Shown here piece by piece: positions 2,680 through 9,234 of a DNA stretch of 64,000 nucleotides. The notes beneath the pieces are model-generated. The model was not told the origin of the DNA, ran no database searches, and saw only the letters and a list, made by a program, of their open reading frames with translations. Both the position numbers and the translations under genes were made by a program. The number at the start of each line of letters is the position of its first letter. The stretch's first letter is position 1. The stretch is taken from contig NZ_SJRW01000001.1 of NCBI RefSeq assembly GCF_004352825.1, positions 1,302,001 to 1,366,000 on the forward strand, given 5' to 3'. The stretch comes from Luteimonas arsenica. Lineage in GTDB: Bacteria > Pseudomonadota > Gammaproteobacteria > Xanthomonadales > Xanthomonadaceae.

Positions 2680-3806
2680 GCGAGGTGCTGGCGCTGGCCG
2701 GCGAGCTGATCGCGCGGCCTTCGGTGACGCCGGAGGATGCCGGCTGCCAGGCGCTGCTGGCCGCGCGGCTCGGGCGCGCGGGCTTCCGCTGCGAGCAGCT
2801 GCGCTTCGGCGAGGTCGACAACCTCTGGGCCACGCACGGCGAAGGCGGCCCGGTGCTGGTGCTGCTCGGCCACACCGACGTGGTGCCGCCGGGCCCGCGC
2901 GAGGCCTGGGCCAGCGACCCCTTCGTGCCGGAAATCCGCGACGGCGTGCTGTACGGCCGCGGCGCCGCCGACATGAAGGGCAGCGTGGCCGCCTTCGTCG
3001 TCGCCCTGGAGCGCTTCGTGGCCGCGCATCCCGCGCATCCAGGCACGGTGGCCCTGCTGCTGACCTCGGACGAGGAGGGCGACGCCATCGACGGCGTGCG
3101 CCGCGTGGCCGAAGAGTTCCGCCGCCGCGGCCAGGGCATCGACTGGTGCATCACCGGCGAGCCTTCGTCCACCGCGCGGCTGGGCGACCTGCTGCGCGTC
3201 GGGCGCCGGGGTTCGCTGACGGCCGCGCTCACCGTGCGCGGGGTGCAGGGCCACGTCGCCTACCCGGAGAAGGCGCGCAATCCCGTGCACCAGGCGCTGC
3301 CGGCGCTGGCCGAACTTGCGGCGCGGCGCTGGGACGAGGGCTACGAGACGTTCCCGCCGACGAGCCTGCAGATCAGCAACGTCGGCGCAGGCGCCGGCGC
3401 GAGCAATGTCATCCCCGGCGAGCTGCGGGTGGGCTTCAACCTCCGCTACAACCCGCACTGGGATGCGCCGCGGCTGGAGTCGGAGATCGAGGCGATGCTG
3501 GCACGGCACGGCCTGGACTTCGAACTGCGCTGGCACCGCAGCGGCGAGCCGTTCTTCACGCCTGAAGGTCCGCTGCGCGCCGCGGCGCGGGCAGTGCTTG
3601 CAAACGTGGCGGGTGAGCCGCCCGAGGAGAGCACCGGCGGCGGTACCTCGGATGCGCGCTTCATCGCGCCCCTGGGAGCGCAATGCATCGAGGTCGGCCC
3701 GGTGAACGCGAGCATCCACAAGGTGGATGAACATGTGTCCGTCGCCGACCTCGAGGCGCTGCCGGAGGTTTACCTGGCGCTGATGGAAAGGCTGCTGATG
3801 GGTTAG
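2676..3806 (+). CDS. dapE: Succinyl-diaminopimelate desuccinylase DapE
   Basis: DapE is a dinuclear zinc hydrolase that removes succinate from N-succinyl-LL-diaminopimelate, two steps after DapD. The 376-residue length equals that of the Escherichia coli enzyme. Visible M20 motifs are HTDVVPPG (H66, D68), GAADMKG (D99), [11 protein letters not shown] (E133/E134), a dimerisation domain with [16 protein letters not shown], and a C-terminal [11 protein letters not shown] followed by [11 protein letters not shown], which supplies the last metal-binding His. The start codon overlaps the preceding stop (ATGA), so dapD, the ArsC-like gene and dapE form one translationally linked unit. Confidence 0.96.
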
Positions 3807-3889
3807 GCGGCGGAGTCGGGGGGCGCAGCTTTTTCGCTCCGGTCACCACCGAAGTGGGTCACGGGGGCAATCCCGCGCAAACCCCTTCC

Positions 3890-3919
3890 TTGCGACCCCC
3901 CGGGTCTCCCTGCTACGTT
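3890..3919 (+). promoter_or_regulatory. Candidate promoter of the asn leader/asnB transcript
   Basis: TTGCGA (3890-3895) and TACGTT (3914-3919) are separated by 18 bases. The -10-like box ends six bases before the leader-peptide ATG at 3926. That is the same geometry as TACAAT-N6-ATG at rnr and TAGAAT-N6-ATG at nfuA in this window, so transcription would start at or beside the A of the ATG and give a leaderless message. No Shine-Dalgarno sequence precedes the ATG. The match to consensus is only moderate. Confidence 0.4.
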
Positions 3920-3925
3920 CGCCAC

Positions 3926-4021
3926 ATGCACCGCCACTCCACCTCCGCCAACGCCCGCAACGACCGCGCCAACAACCGCGGCTCGAACAATCGCGCGCGC
4001 CCGGCGTGGGCGGGAGGCTAG
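3926..4021 (+). CDS. Asparagine-rich leader peptide upstream of asnB
   Basis: This 31-codon frame (ATG 3926, TAG 4019-4021) begins MHRHSTSANARNDRANNRG. It contains six asparagine codons, at residues 9, 12, 16, 17, 21 and 22, two pairs of them adjacent. It ends 24 bases before a strong intrinsic terminator and 105 bases before the asparagine synthetase start. This is the arrangement of ribosome-mediated attenuators, in which the leader is rich in the codon of the amino acid that the operon makes. The peptide itself probably has no function beyond regulation. It is too short to be judged by homology; the call rests on codon content, position and RNA structure. Confidence 0.75.
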   Translation: MHRHSTSANARNDRANNRGSNNRARPAWAGG

Positions 4022-4077
4022 GCGGCGGCAACCGCGATACCCCCCGAAACCCGCGCCCGGCGCGGGTTTCGCTTTTT
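3952..4077 (+). promoter_or_regulatory. Putative asparagine attenuator (alternative RNA pairings)
   Basis: Three competing helices can be drawn. Terminator: 4045-4057 (CGAAACCCGCGCC) with 4059-4071. Antiterminator: 4003-4010 (GGCGTGGG) with 4050-4057 (CCCGCGCC), eight pairs including one G-U, which uses the left arm of the terminator. Anti-antiterminator: 3952-3958 (CGCCCGC) with 4006-4012 (GTGGGCG), seven pairs with one G-U. A ribosome stalled at the Asn codons (3950-3991) would leave 4003-4010 free and favour read-through. One that reaches the stop at 4021 would cover 4003-4010 and allow termination. The pairings are seen in sequence; the mechanism is inferred. Confidence 0.65.
4045..4077 (+). 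terminator. Intrinsic terminator in the asnB leader
   Basis: The arms CGAAACCCGCGCC (4045-4057) and GGCGCGGGTTTCG (4059-4071) are perfectly complementary; in practice this is an 11-bp stem with a CCCGG loop. TTTTT (4073-4077) follows immediately. It lies between the leader peptide and asnB on the same strand, so it can only act as a regulated (attenuating) terminator for asnB. Confidence 0.85.
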
Positions 4078-4126
4078 CCGCGCAGGGAGCATCCATCGCC
4101 GGCCGTCCGGCACAAGGAGCCCCATC

Positions 4127-5854
4127 ATGTGTTCGATCCTCGGGATCTTCGACCTCCGCCGCGGCGCCGATGTCTCGGTGCTGCGTCCCCTCGCACTGTC
4201 GCTGTCCGCGCTGCAGCGCCACCGCGGCCCCGATTGGAGCGGCGTGCACGCCGATGCCAACGCGCTGCTGGTGCACGAGCGCCTGGCCATCGTCGATCCG
4301 CTGGGCGGTGCGCAGCCGCTGCGCTCGGCCGATGGCCAGCTGGTGCTGGCGGTCAACGGCGAGATCTACAACCACCGCGAGCTGGAGGACGCGACCGGCG
4401 ATGGCTATGACTTCCAGAGCGGCTCCGACTGCGAGGTGATCAATGCGCTCTACGCCGCAACGATGGACGGCGTGGAGGGCCGTCGACGGGCTGCCTGCGA
4501 GGACATCGGCGCATGGCTGTCGCGCCTCAACGGCATCTTCGCCTTCGCCCTGTGGGATCGCGACCGCGGCCGAGCGATCATCGCCCGCGACCCGATCGGC
4601 GTCTGCCCGCTGTACTGGGGTCATGACGGCGATGGCCGGCTGTGGGTGGCTTCCGAGATGAAGGCGCTGGCCCGCAGCTGCGCCGACGTCGAGGTCTTCC
4701 CGCCGGGGCACTGGTACGACACCGCCACCGGCGAACTTCGCCGCTACTACGAGCGTCCCTGGCGCGAGCGCGGGGCCACGCTGGGCCGCCGCGTCGAACC
4801 GGCGGCGCTGCGCGAGGCCTTCGAAGCCGCCGTGCACCGGCAGATGATGGCCGACGTGCCCTATGGCGTCCTGCTTTCCGGCGGCCTCGATTCCTCGCTG
4901 GTCGCAGCCTGCGCCGCGCGTTTCGCACGTCGCCGCATCGAGGACGACGATGCCTCCGAAGCCTGGTGGCCGCGCCTGCACTCCTTCGCCATCGGCCTGG
5001 AGGGCTCGCCCGACCTGGCCGCGGCCGAGGTCGCGGCGAAAGCGCTGGGCACGGTGCACCACGGCTTCACCTACACGCTGGAGGAGGGCATCGACGCCCT
5101 GCCGGAGGTGATCCGCCACATCGAAAGCTTCGACGTCACCACCGTGCGCGCGTCGACGCCGATGTACCTGCTGGCGCGCCGGATCAAGGCCATGGGCGTG
5201 AAGATGGTGCTGTCCGGCGAGGGCAGCGACGAGGTCTTCGGCGGCTACCTCTACTTCCATCGCGCGCCCGACGCCGACGCCTTCCACGAGGAAACCGTGC
5301 GCAAGTTGGACGCCCTGCACCAGTACGACTGCCTGCGCGCCAACAAGTCGATGATGGCCTGGGGCGTGGAGGCGCGCGTTCCGTTCCTGGACCTGGAATT
5401 CCTGGAGCTGGCGATGGGCATGGACGCGGAGGCGAAGATGGTCGCGCCGCGCCCTAACGGCCGCCCGCCGATCGAGAAGGCGGTGCTGCGCGAGGCCTTC
5501 GAAGGCGTGCTGCCGGCGTCGATCCTGTGGCGGCAGAAGGAACAGTTCAGCGACGGCGTCGGCTATGGCTGGATCGATGCGCTGAAGGCGCGGGCCGCGG
5601 AGGTCGTGGGCGATGCCGCCTTCGCCGATGCCGCGAAGCGTTTTCCGCACGACCCGCCGGTCACGCGCGAGGCCTACTGGTACCGCAGCCTGTTCGAAGC
5701 CGCGTTCCCGGGCCAAGCCTGCGCGCGGACGGTGCCGGGCGGGCCGTCGATCGCCTGTTCGTCGCCGGCGGCGATCGCCTGGGACGCGGCCTTCGCGGCT
5801 GCGGCCGATCCTTCCGGGCGGGCGGTGGCCGGGGTGCACGCGGCGGCGCTATAG
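4127..5854 (+). CDS. asnB: Asparagine synthetase B (glutamine-hydrolysing)
   Basis: AsnB converts aspartate, glutamine and ATP to asparagine. After the initiator Met comes Cys2 (MCSILGIFDL), the nucleophile of the glutaminase domain. RHRGPDWSG, HERLAIVDP and NGEIYNHREL are class-II amidotransferase motifs. The synthetase domain has the pyrophosphate loop SGGLDSS near residue 251, LSGEGSDEVFGGYLYF, and EARVPFLDLEF further on. The 575-residue length is normal, with a slightly long Ala-rich end. The ribosome-binding site AAGGAG (4114-4119) is seven bases before ATG 4127. The upstream leader peptide and terminator suggest control by asparaginyl-tRNA supply. Confidence 0.96.
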   Translation: MCSILGIFDLRRGADVSVLRPLALSLSALQRHRGPDWSGVHADANALLVHERLAIVDPLGGAQPLRSADGQLVLAVNGEIYNHRELEDATGDGYDFQSGSDCEVINALYAATMDGVEGRRRAACEDIGAWLSRLNGIFAFALWDRDRGRAIIARDPIGVCPLYWGHDGDGRLWVASEMKALARSCADVEVFPPGHWYDTATGELRRYYERPWRERGATLGRRVEPAALREAFEAAVHRQMMADVPYGVLLSGGLDSSLVAACAARFARRRIEDDDASEAWWPRLHSFAIGLEGSPDLAAAEVAAKALGTVHHGFTYTLEEGIDALPEVIRHIESFDVTTVRASTPMYLLARRIKAMGVKMVLSGEGSDEVFGGYLYFHRAPDADAFHEETVRKLDALHQYDCLRANKSMMAWGVEARVPFLDLEFLELAMGMDAEAKMVAPRPNGRPPIEKAVLREAFEGVLPASILWRQKEQFSDGVGYGWIDALKARAAEVVGDAAFADAAKRFPHDPPVTREAYWYRSLFEAAFPGQACARTVPGGPSIACSSPAAIAWDAAFAAAADPSGRAVAGVHAAAL

Positions 5855-6771: not shown

Positions 6772-9234
6772 TCAGCGCCTCTCCAGCACGAGGGAATGGC
6801 GTGCCGGGCCGGGCAGGAACGGCGACGGCCGTCCCGACACCCAGTCCTCGTGCCCGGCGCCCCAGAACGGCGACAGCGGGTGTCCGCTCTGGCCCCCGGG
6901 CTGGTGGATGATGCCCTCGGCTTCACGGCCCGGTGCGACCACCATGCGCTGCGAGGCGCCCATCGCCGGTGCCTGCACGCGTGGCATGTGGCTGTCGCCG
7001 GGCAGCGGGTCGGCCGGCATGCACAGCGCTTGGCGCAATGGTCCCGGCAGGGCCTGGGCCAGCGGATGGCAGATGCGTGCGGTGTTGGCCTCGCCCCAGC
7101 TGCGCTCGGCCAGCGGCCCGGCCGGCGCGAGCTCGTCGCGCACGGCGGCCGCGGCCTGCTCGAACAGCGCGTCCCAATCCGCGTAGTGCGACGGCAGCAG
7201 GTGCGGCGGACGCTGCATCACCAGCGGCCAGGCCACACCCTCCAGCTGGGGCAGCGCCGGCATCTCGAACGCATCGCCAAGGGCGGCGCGCGCGGGCCCC
7301 AGCAGTCCGAGGGCGATGCGCTCGTTGACCGCGAGGCGCCAGGCCCGCACCAGCCGGTAGCCGGTGGAGTCGACCGATGCGCGTCCATCCCAGTCGGCGC
7401 TGGCATCGGCCAGTGCCCGGAGGGCGGGGGCGTCCTGCGCGCGCGCGCGCTCGAGCAGCAGCACGTGCCAGCGCTCGAGGAACAGGGCGCGGTCATCGAG
7501 CTGGATGGCCAGCAGGTCGCGTTCGTCGAAACGCTCGCGCGCCCTCAGCGCGTCGCGGATCTGCGCGCCGCGCGCGCCCAGGGCATAGCCGCCGTCGCCG
7601 ATGGCCGCCAGCGCCGGGCCGCCGACCACGCGCGCGTTCGCGGTCCAGATGCGGTCCGCGGTGGGCGAGGCGACGGTGGGGCCGCGGCGGGTGCTCATCG
7701 TCCAGGGCGGGCACGCGGCCGCCGCAGCGCCTTCCATCGGCGCGGTGGCGTCGCAGGCCTCGGCGCGCTGTGGCATCGGCCCGACCAGGCGCCAGGCGAT
7801 GCGGCCGTTGCGGTCGCCGATCACCAGGTTCTGGTTGGGCAAGGCGATCCCGCGCGCCAGCACCAGGGCGCGCTCCACGTCGGGCATCCGCGCCATGCCG
7901 GTGAGGCCGAGGTTGATCGCGCCGGGCAGGTGTGCGGTCCAGCGCAGGCTGAGCACGCGGCCGTCGTCGCTGCGGTGGAGCACCGGCCCCCAGTCCGATT
8001 CCTCGATGTCGAGGGCCACGGGTTCGCCGCCGGCGACCTCGATCGTCTCGCGGTGGCGCACGAGGTGGACGCAGTCTTCGTCATCGCCATCGCCGTCCAC
8101 GGCCGGCTGCGCGGCATCGCCCGCGCAGGGCGTCTCCAGCTTCCAGTCCAGGTAGTCGCCGTAGCTGTTGGTGAAGCCCCAGGCGACGTGGCCGTTGCTG
8201 CCGACGACCACCGCCGGGAGGCCGGGCAAGGTGAAGCCGGAGACGTCGACGCGGCCGCCGGGCGCGCGCTCGTCCGCGTAGGCCAGGCGCGCGCGGAACC
8301 AGATTCCCGGCGCGCGCAGGCCCAGGTGCATGTCGTCGGCGACCAGGGCGGCGCCATGCGCGGTGAGCGCGCCGGCGACGGCGAAGTTGTTGCTGCCCGG
8401 CGCTTCGGGTTCGAGTGCGGCGGCAATCGCGGCCCGACGGCCTGCGTCGATGGCGCCAGCCCCAGGGATTGAAGCCTGCCCGGGACTGTGGGTTTCCGCC
8501 GCATCGACATCGGGCGACGGCAGCAGGCGCAGGTCGAGCGCGTCCGCTCCCGGCAGTACGGCATCGCCCACCGCTGCGCCCACCAGCGGTGAATCCCAGC
8601 TCGATCCCGCGTGCGCGAGCAGCGCATACAGCGTTTCGGGCAGGTGCGGACGCGCCTTCCACAGCGCCAGTTCGCGCGCGTTGCCGGCGTCCTGCAGGTC
8701 GAAGTACATGGCGTGGCCGACCAGCACCGAGTCTTCCGGGCGCCAGGGTTCGGGCGTGGTGCGCAGCAGCAGGTAGGGCCAGGGGCGCGCGCGGAGGGCT
8801 TCGCGGCCCGCGTTGGCGCCATCGGCATAGGCCTGGAGCAGGGTGCGCTCGGCTTCGGGCGCGGCGGTCACCTCGGCTGCGGCACGGGTACGCATGCGAT
8901 GCAGACGCTGCCGGCGGTCGGTGTCGAGCGCGATCGGGCCGAACAGTGCGGCCAGCTCGCCCGCCGCCGAGCGCCGCATCAGGTCCATCTCGAACCAGCG
9001 CTCCTGCGCGTGCACATAGCCCAGCGCACGCATCGCGTCGATCTCGTCCGCGGCCTCGATGCCGACCACGCCCAGCGCATCGCGGGAGACGCTGGCAGGT
9101 GCGGACAGCCCCGTCAGCGGGGCGTTGCCGTCAAGCCGCGGCAGGCTCCCGCGCAGCGCCCACCACGCGGCCAGGGCCAGCAGCGCGGCGATCACTCCAA
9201 GCAGCAGCGCGATGCGCAGGATCCAGCGGACCAT
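6772..9234 (-). CDS. Penicillin acylase family protein (Ntn-hydrolase)
   Basis: This 820-residue member of the penicillin amidase family (S45) hydrolyses amide bonds of compounds such as beta-lactam side chains or acyl-homoserine lactones. The N-terminus carries a membrane or signal segment (residues 5-28), placing it in the periplasm. ALGYVHAQERWFEMDLMRR is the family alpha-subunit motif. The self-cleavage site is visible near residue 280 as EAPGSNNFAVAG, where the Ser after Gly becomes the N-terminal nucleophile. NGHVAWGFTNSYGDYLD is the oxyanion/Asn region of the beta subunit. A GGAGAGGAT sequence precedes ATG 9234. The natural substrate cannot be told; quorum-signal degradation is one possibility. 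Confidence 0.9.
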   Translation of the reverse strand: MVRWILRIALLLGVIAALLALAAWWALRGSLPRLDGNAPLTGLSAPASVSRDALGVVGIEAADEIDAMRALGYVHAQERWFEMDLMRRSAAGELAALFGPIALDTDRRQRLHRMRTRAAAEVTAAPEAERTLLQAYADGANAGREALRARPWPYLLLRTTPEPWRPEDSVLVGHAMYFDLQDAGNARELALWKARPHLPETLYALLAHAGSSWDSPLVGAAVGDAVLPGADALDLRLLPSPDVDAAETHSPGQASIPGAGAIDAGRRAAIAAALEPEAPGSNNFAVAGALTAHGAALVADDMHLGLRAPGIWFRARLAYADERAPGGRVDVSGFTLPGLPAVVVGSNGHVAWGFTNSYGDYLDWKLETPCAGDAAQPAVDGDGDDEDCVHLVRHRETIEVAGGEPVALDIEESDWGPVLHRSDDGRVLSLRWTAHLPGAINLGLTGMARMPDVERALVLARGIALPNQNLVIGDRNGRIAWRLVGPMPQRAEACDATAPMEGAAAAACPPWTMSTRRGPTVASPTADRIWTANARVVGGPALAAIGDGGYALGARGAQIRDALRARERFDERDLLAIQLDDRALFLERWHVLLLERARAQDAPALRALADASADWDGRASVDSTGYRLVRAWRLAVNERIALGLLGPARAALGDAFEMPALPQLEGVAWPLVMQRPPHLLPSHYADWDALFEQAAAAVRDELAPAGPLAERSWGEANTARICHPLAQALPGPLRQALCMPADPLPGDSHMPRVQAPAMGASQRMVVAPGREAEGIIHQPGGQSGHPLSPFWGAGHEDWVSGRPSPFLPGPARHSLVLERR

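Follow-up and report, generated by a model that had tools for sequence, protein, structure and literature searches.

In Luteimonas arsenica, the asparagine synthase gene asnB is preceded by a short open reading frame (ORF) rich in asparagine (Asn) codons and by a hairpin with a T-rich tail. We analysed this arrangement in a stretch of 64,000 nucleotides, hereafter the window, and in its relatives. In window coordinates, the features of the locus are the following:

3890..3895, + strand: -35-like element TTGCGA, 18 nt before the -10-like hexamer
3914..3919, + strand: -10-like element TACGTT, 6 nt before the leader ATG
3926..4021, + strand: leader ORF, 31 codons with six Asn codons; predicted leaderless translation
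4003..4014, + strand: putative antiterminator 5' arm, within the last leader codons; core 4003-4010; duplex with 4043-4057
4043..4057, + strand: putative antiterminator 3' partner; core 4050-4057; overlaps the left arm of the terminator
4045..4077, + strand: intrinsic terminator; stem-loop 4045-4071, 12 pairs, loop of 3, tail CTTTTT; stem kept in relatives with compensatory changes
4114..4119, + strand: Shine-Dalgarno-like AAGGAG of asnB, read from the window letters
4127..5854, + strand: asnB, asparagine synthase B, 575 aa (NCBIfam NF006949, 797 bits, cut-off 499)

The leader (3926-4021) is translated as MHRHSTSANARNDRANNRGSNNRARPAWAGG up to its stop codon. Its Asn codons start at 3950, 3959, 3971, 3974, 3986, and 3989, among them two adjacent pairs; the earlier note on this DNA had likewise read six Asn codons with two adjacent pairs. 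In the number of Asn residues within the last 30 codons, it tops all 457 ORFs of 20 to 60 codons on both strands of the window (six, the runner-up having four), and the gene behind it (asnB, NF006949) makes the very residue that is enriched in the leader. An Asn-rich leader before asnB is confirmed as a real observation. The leader matches no NCBIfam family and no Rfam family at gathering score; hence, it has probably been overlooked in annotation. The best weak Rfam matches both lie over the terminator (rnk_pseudo, 32.3 bits with a cut-off of 55; Leu_leader, 20.3 bits with a cut-off of 50), and a match to CRISPR-DR20 at 4454-4489 (29.7 bits, cut-off 42) falls inside asnB and was taken as chance. 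Upstream of the leader, on the same strand, lies dapE (TIGR01246, 534.6 bits, cut-off 361.8). The genome encodes an asparaginyl-tRNA synthetase, asnS, at full score (TIGR00457, 638.6 bits, cut-off 342.6), so the charging of tRNA-Asn can draw on free Asn. Downstream of asnB, the minus strand holds a gene for a penicillin amidase family protein (6772-9234; PF01804, 438.5 bits).

The two main structures proposed for the region in the earlier note were borne out. The leader ends shortly before a perfect terminator stem of 12 pairs with a run of five T's (tail CTTTTT), and 49 nt separate the end of this run (4077) from the ATG of asnB, close to the 50 bases claimed. A terminator scan returned two overlapping sites where 0.4 were expected. 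The fold of 3926-4126 taken alone is mildly unusual (z of -1.88, with 10 of 200 shuffles equally good) and is uninformative by itself. The eight-pair helix between 4003-4010 and 4050-4057, which uses the left terminator arm, consists of eight contiguous pairs, one of them G-U, and the computed duplex extends further from 4011-4014 to 4043-4046; this helix covaries in relatives (see below).

How widely is the arrangement kept? We found asnB in 221 of the 247 genomes of the family. From the listed, closer asnB matches, 110 loci were sampled, 30 as returned and 80 hand-chosen for genus spread, and a leader was scored when a short ORF upstream of asnB had at least three Asn in its last 30 to 40 codons. 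Of these 110 loci with close AsnB, 109 have an Asn-rich leader ahead of asnB; L090 was dropped from the leader count because its sole candidate, with three Asn, is not leader-like. Two leaders (L018 and L024) end 341 and 422 nt upstream of asnB and were found by a wider look. A simple scan located a T-tailed hairpin within 300 nt in 106 of the 110 loci, and a hairpin follows the leader in all 109 when no T run is demanded. One genus had its terminator missed by the simple scan, and the four loci inspected there (L289, L291, L293, and L294) have it, with one bulged base. Leader and terminator are also kept in six loci (L018, L024, L068, L094, L204, and L205) despite a distance of 200 to 420 nt between leader stop and asnB; by eye, the intervening DNA of L018 and L068, for example, is repeat-like.

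Since the 110-locus sample favours close AsnB, we took 30 more genomes of the family, mostly from its distant end, and found the leader in 15 of them. The identity of AsnB is 68-78% in these 15 and 61-65% in the 15 without a leader (L297-L311). Among these 30, the leader is thus absent exactly where AsnB is divergent, and so it goes with one AsnB lineage. The loci without it, together with L237, carry a divergent AsnB lineage (61-65% identity to that of the window) and no leader, possibly a case of replacement by transfer.

Within the leaders, constraint falls on particular codons. Start codons were assigned by the promoter rule [TC]ANNNT (see below), which left 13 of the 109 loci unassignable and 96 leaders for the counts that follow. 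Asn makes up 18.2% of the codons of these 96 leaders, against 0.1% in each of the other forward frames and 2.1% in shuffles, and they average 6.0 Asn in 33.0 codons (316 AAC and 262 AAT). The peptide before the Asn run varies widely among relatives in both sequence and length. Besides the Asn run, the last codons are constant, with peptide endings such as LPRAGD, RPMRVCD, and RWRARA right before the stop, and it is these codons that hold the antiterminator arm.

The two alternative helices were followed in an alignment of 32 sequences (A1). For the terminator, 96.3% of the cells are paired, and 7 of 11 pairs are changed on both sides in some row. For the antiterminator (columns 60-69 with 115-125), 70.6% of the cells are paired, against 21.5-39.0% when the strands are slid; shuffles of A1 give 65.7 (SD 0.8), and none of 500 reaches 70.6%, kinship being ignored. 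Its covariation score is 0.175, against 0.106 in shuffles, with none of 500 as high (kinship is again ignored). At 65-119, 23 rows have G-C and 9 have A-U, and no row is unpaired. The helix of the window occupies columns 60-67 with 117-125, in the same register as the conserved helix. The numbers of antiterminator pairs changed on both sides (5 versus 4.4 in shuffles) and of further pair types (9 versus 9.8) show no excess. The outer pairs are unpaired in 20-24 of the 32 rows, being kept in some groups only, and pair 69-115 is unpaired in 16.

The arms also match their own targets. Over the 109 loci, an arm pairs with its own target at -18.2 kcal/mol and with the targets of other loci at -15.5, a difference reached in none of 5,000 permutations that ignore kinship. 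Taken one by one and ignoring kinship, own arm-target pairing is stronger than in shuffles of the same locus at p<=0.05 in only 73 of the 109 loci; outside the family of the window, the same holds for 19 of 21 loci, kinship likewise ignored. The hairpin picker used for the 109-locus test demands no T run, and in at least L003, L009, L022, L034, and L070 it chose a hairpin different from that of the T-tail scan. In the group L004-L007, the antiterminator is not above its own shuffles and the terminator tails are T-poor. As far as comparison of relatives goes, we regard as established the Asn run, its frame, the stop position, the terminator, the alternative pairing, the promoter-ATG spacing (see below), and the association with asnB.

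The spacing of these elements was measured over the same loci. Counted from the initial base of the last Asn codon before the arm, the distance to the arm has a median of 14 nt (quartiles 13 and 14; 14 in the window), that from the start of the arm to the stop codon 14 nt (13 and 18; 16 in the window), and that from the stop to the terminator 27 nt (25 and 29; 23 in the window). Given the footprint sizes generally attributed to the ribosome, which we used for this geometry, the distances fit a ribosome that, when waiting with its A site on the last Asn codon, would just spare the arm and that, at the stop codon, would cover the arm without reaching the terminator.

The earlier note had added a third helix, between 3952-3958 and 4006-4012, that would sequester the arm. 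We rejected it. By sequence, seven pairs, one of them G-U, are possible in the window. Across relatives, 44.6% of the cells are paired, and slid versions give 35.7-54.5%, so this helix is not conserved. On two of five measures it scores above most column shuffles (9 and 15 of 500 reach its value), and slid versions do equally well or better. The arm pairs with the upstream leader sequence as it does in controls with a shuffled 5' part (0.61 versus 0.60, 46 of 96 being higher). A sequestering helix is not needed, because a ribosome at the stop codon is itself expected to cover the arm. The conserved 1:2 pause or protector hairpin of enteric trp and his leaders has no conserved counterpart here. 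An alignment of relatives, as the earlier note had advised, keeps the Asn run, the stop position, the terminator, and the antiterminator with compensatory changes, and loses the third helix. Of the full his/trp/leu logic once claimed for this leader, the switch between terminator and antiterminator survives and the three-helix layout does not; the comparisons support a two-state switch of this kind rather than the layout of his and trp.

The leader had also been described as apparently leaderless, from the spacing TACGTT-N6-ATG, and the relatives agree. The pattern [TC]ANNNT precedes an in-frame ATG in 96 of the 109 loci, by 6 nt in 78 and by 7 nt in 18, and it stands 6-7 nt before only 13 of 739 ATGs of the window used as controls. 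A TTG lies 16-19 nt before the -10-like hexamer in all 96 loci tested, where shuffles predict 3.5%. Shine-Dalgarno-like motifs occur before 27 of the 96 leader starts, against 101 of 109 asnB starts, and many of these 27 could be the AGGA of CAGGAT. At spacings of 5-8 nt, [TC]ANNNT matched only 5 of 22 loci tried from outside and inside the family (one of the five from the family of the window), and the full promoter pattern matched 6 of 10 named loci tried. By eye, the second large family of the order has TTGC and hexamers such as TCTAGT or TTTAGT at similar distances. The constant spacing between promoter and ATG supports leaderless translation of the leader.

We propose that the asnB leader is very probably a ribosome-mediated transcription attenuator through which the level of asparaginyl-tRNA governs asnB; conservation, compensatory changes, and association with asnB in more than 100 relatives support this claim of the earlier note. 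Transcription would start on the leader ATG or no more than a few bases away from it, giving an mRNA that would be translated leaderless. With Asn-tRNA plentiful, the ribosome would reach the stop codon and cover the arm (4003-4014), the terminator (4045-4071) would form, and asnB would not be transcribed. With Asn-tRNA scarce, the ribosome would wait at an Asn codon, the last of them at 3989, and leave the arm free; by pairing with 4043-4057, the arm would tie up the terminator's left strand, and the polymerase would read into asnB. We infer the transcript start, the footprints, the switching, and the response to Asn from these patterns in the DNA.

Could the leader serve another purpose? Its transcript or peptide might act mainly in trans, with cis control of asnB secondary, like rnTrpL and peTrpL of Sinorhizobium meliloti, and the predicted short leaderless message ending at a strong terminator does resemble S. 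meliloti trpL as excerpts of PMC7298713 describe it. Such a role is very unlikely, given that the peptide, apart from its Asn run and the end that the arm encodes, is highly variable and that the element always stands before asnB in the leaders counted, although our tests addressed cis features only. A stalled ribosome could shield RNA from Rho, and stalling at Asn codons might therefore control asnB through Rho-dependent termination, or else through translation of asnB, with the hairpin swap not being the switch. What argues against it is that the intrinsic terminator is conserved and has, at a fixed spacing, an alternative partner that covaries with it, and we give this explanation equally little credence.

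We consider it less probable still that the hairpin serves only to end the transcript of dapE at its 3' side and that the Asn-rich ORF arose by chance from the base composition. In the window, dapE does lie upstream on the same strand, and it was found there in only 46 of the 109 loci; the other 63 loci, for which no dapE was found upstream, have the leader as well, which indicates that the element goes with asnB. Furthermore, Asn is limited to one frame, the leader has a conserved promoter of its own, and the antiterminator covaries. T-box riboswitches control asparagine genes in Firmicutes, and the direct control of asnB by a T-box or another RNA binding tRNA or a ligand is hardly credible here, as no Rfam family reaches its gathering score in 3500-4500, no T-box is among the six weak matches, and conservation tracks codons and ribosome spacing.

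Beyond the family, the attenuator proposed here was sought with a covariance model (R1) built from 32 asnB leaders. In the genome of the window, the asnB leader is its sole strong full-length match (79.6 bits; the next has 26.0 bits and covers the terminator part only). R1 matches 207 of 250 genomes of the order at E<=0.01, mostly weakly and including other families. Among the matches fetched in the order, 22 of 40 are Asn leaders before asnB: 19 of the 20 top ones, and 3 of 20 weaker or secondary ones, which also comprise 10 branched-chain leaders and 7 that are neither (L170-L173, L175, L176, and L179). Four genomes in which asnB was not found (G002, G076, G107, and G128) have no strong R1 match either. 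In a search reaching beyond the order, R1 matches 43 of 369 genomes of the class at E<=1e-4. In the class-wide search, the four matches of at least 61 bits are all in the family of the window, and the rest have at most 39 bits, many covering the terminator part only and several being nominally full length.

Among 80 named asnB loci, a set that overlaps with the unnamed one so that counts are not additive, the leader is present in 40. The genera are Xanthomonas, Stenotrophomonas, Luteimonas, Lysobacter, Pseudoxanthomonas, Thermomonas, Arenimonas, Dyella, Rhodanobacter, Fulvimonas, and Frateuria, plus several bins. It is absent from 39, including Vibrio, Shewanella, Ferrimonas, Photobacterium, Aeromonas, and Coralloluteibacterium (L237); also among the 39 are records with other labels (L200, L219, and L222; AsnB 72-76%) whose gene lacks the leader. 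Three loci (L256, L259, and L264) have ORFs with 5-7 Asn and no terminator and were excluded from the leader count.

One named locus, L239 of Rubrivirga, has a leader of another type. In the order of Rubrivirga, an Asn-rich short ORF and a terminator precede asnB in 5 of 11 loci examined (L272, which is the same gene as L239, L273, L274, L276, and L277), with three partial matches outside this count, and the leader sequence is unlike that of Lysobacterales. The antiterminator pairing beats shuffles at p<=0.05 in none of the five, so these leaders stay a lead, and a second origin is possible.

The branched-chain leaders matched by R1 come from other genomes of the order (L163-L169 and L180-L182) and have terminators; one example is LVLVLITSPTGAGR. 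The downstream genes of three fragments tested are ilvC (L165 and L182) and ilvD (L180). Like the asnB leader, these combine a codon run (here Leu/Val/Ile), a short coded arm, and a terminator; they differ in their amino acids and genes. In seven loci inspected, the start of a TTGACA lies 36-38 nt ahead of an in-frame ATG, a distance also seen in asnB leaders, which suggests that these leaders may be leaderless too.

Is an Asn attenuator new? A literature search returned no asnB or Asn leader-peptide attenuator among the matches listed, judged by title and start of the abstract; the surveys Lopatovskaya 2010 or Vitreschak 2004 could contain a case. Excerpts of PMC2965389, PMC1262725, PMC1183508, and PMC4833913 show no asparagine attenuator either. 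The features by which leader-peptide attenuators can be tested are found at asnB: a short upstream ORF rich in codons of the pathway amino acid (six Asn of 31 codons), an intrinsic terminator between leader and gene, a mutually exclusive antiterminator sharing a terminator arm (kinship ignored), and a spacing by which, given general footprint sizes, a ribosome would mask the arm at the stop and not at the key codons. Hence, with no Asn case in the literature searched, the leader appears to be new within a known kind, to which it adds Asn, with the reservation that an earlier prediction may exist.

If our reading is true, Asn joins the amino acids sensed by leader-peptide attenuation, and there is an explanation for how asnB is controlled throughout a large bacterial order, with plant and opportunistic pathogens among its members. 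Genomes carrying the asnB leader should then produce a short leaderless mRNA. The fixed start would be a natural test of the timing of ribosome and polymerase without a conserved pause hairpin. We suggest, with slightly more doubt than confidence, a leaderless type of attenuator in Lysobacterales: the transcript would begin at the leader ATG, the ribosome would load as soon as the first codons appear, and no use would be made of the 1:2 pause hairpin, which in enteric attenuators times ribosome and polymerase. The Asn leader would belong to a set of such devices, with the ilv leaders sharing its distance between -35 element and ATG, and Asn leaders may have arisen twice, the second time in the order of Rubrivirga.

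How does the asnB leader compare with known systems? The T-boxes of Firmicutes share with it the pathway and the sensing of tRNA-Asn charging that we propose; they differ in that their RNA binds tRNA directly, without leader translation, and no such match occurs in 3500-4500. In S. meliloti, the trpL attenuator transcript (rnTrpL) has its 5' end at the leader ATG, i.e., it is leaderless, according to excerpts of PMC7298713. This start is what we predict for the asnB leader, whereas the S. meliloti system concerns tryptophan and its RNA and peptide also act in trans. Leader-peptide transcription attenuators are found in the his, trp, leu, thr, phe, and ilv operons of enteric bacteria. Their general mechanism is treated in PMC1183508. 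They share with the asnB leader a short ORF in which codons abound for the amino acid that the next gene makes, an intrinsic terminator, an alternative antiterminator, and, as we propose, a choice decided by the position of the ribosome. The asnB leader differs from them in sensing, as predicted, Asn, in its putative leaderless start, in the lack of a conserved 1:2 hairpin, and in an antiterminator arm that is coded by the last codons of the leader itself.
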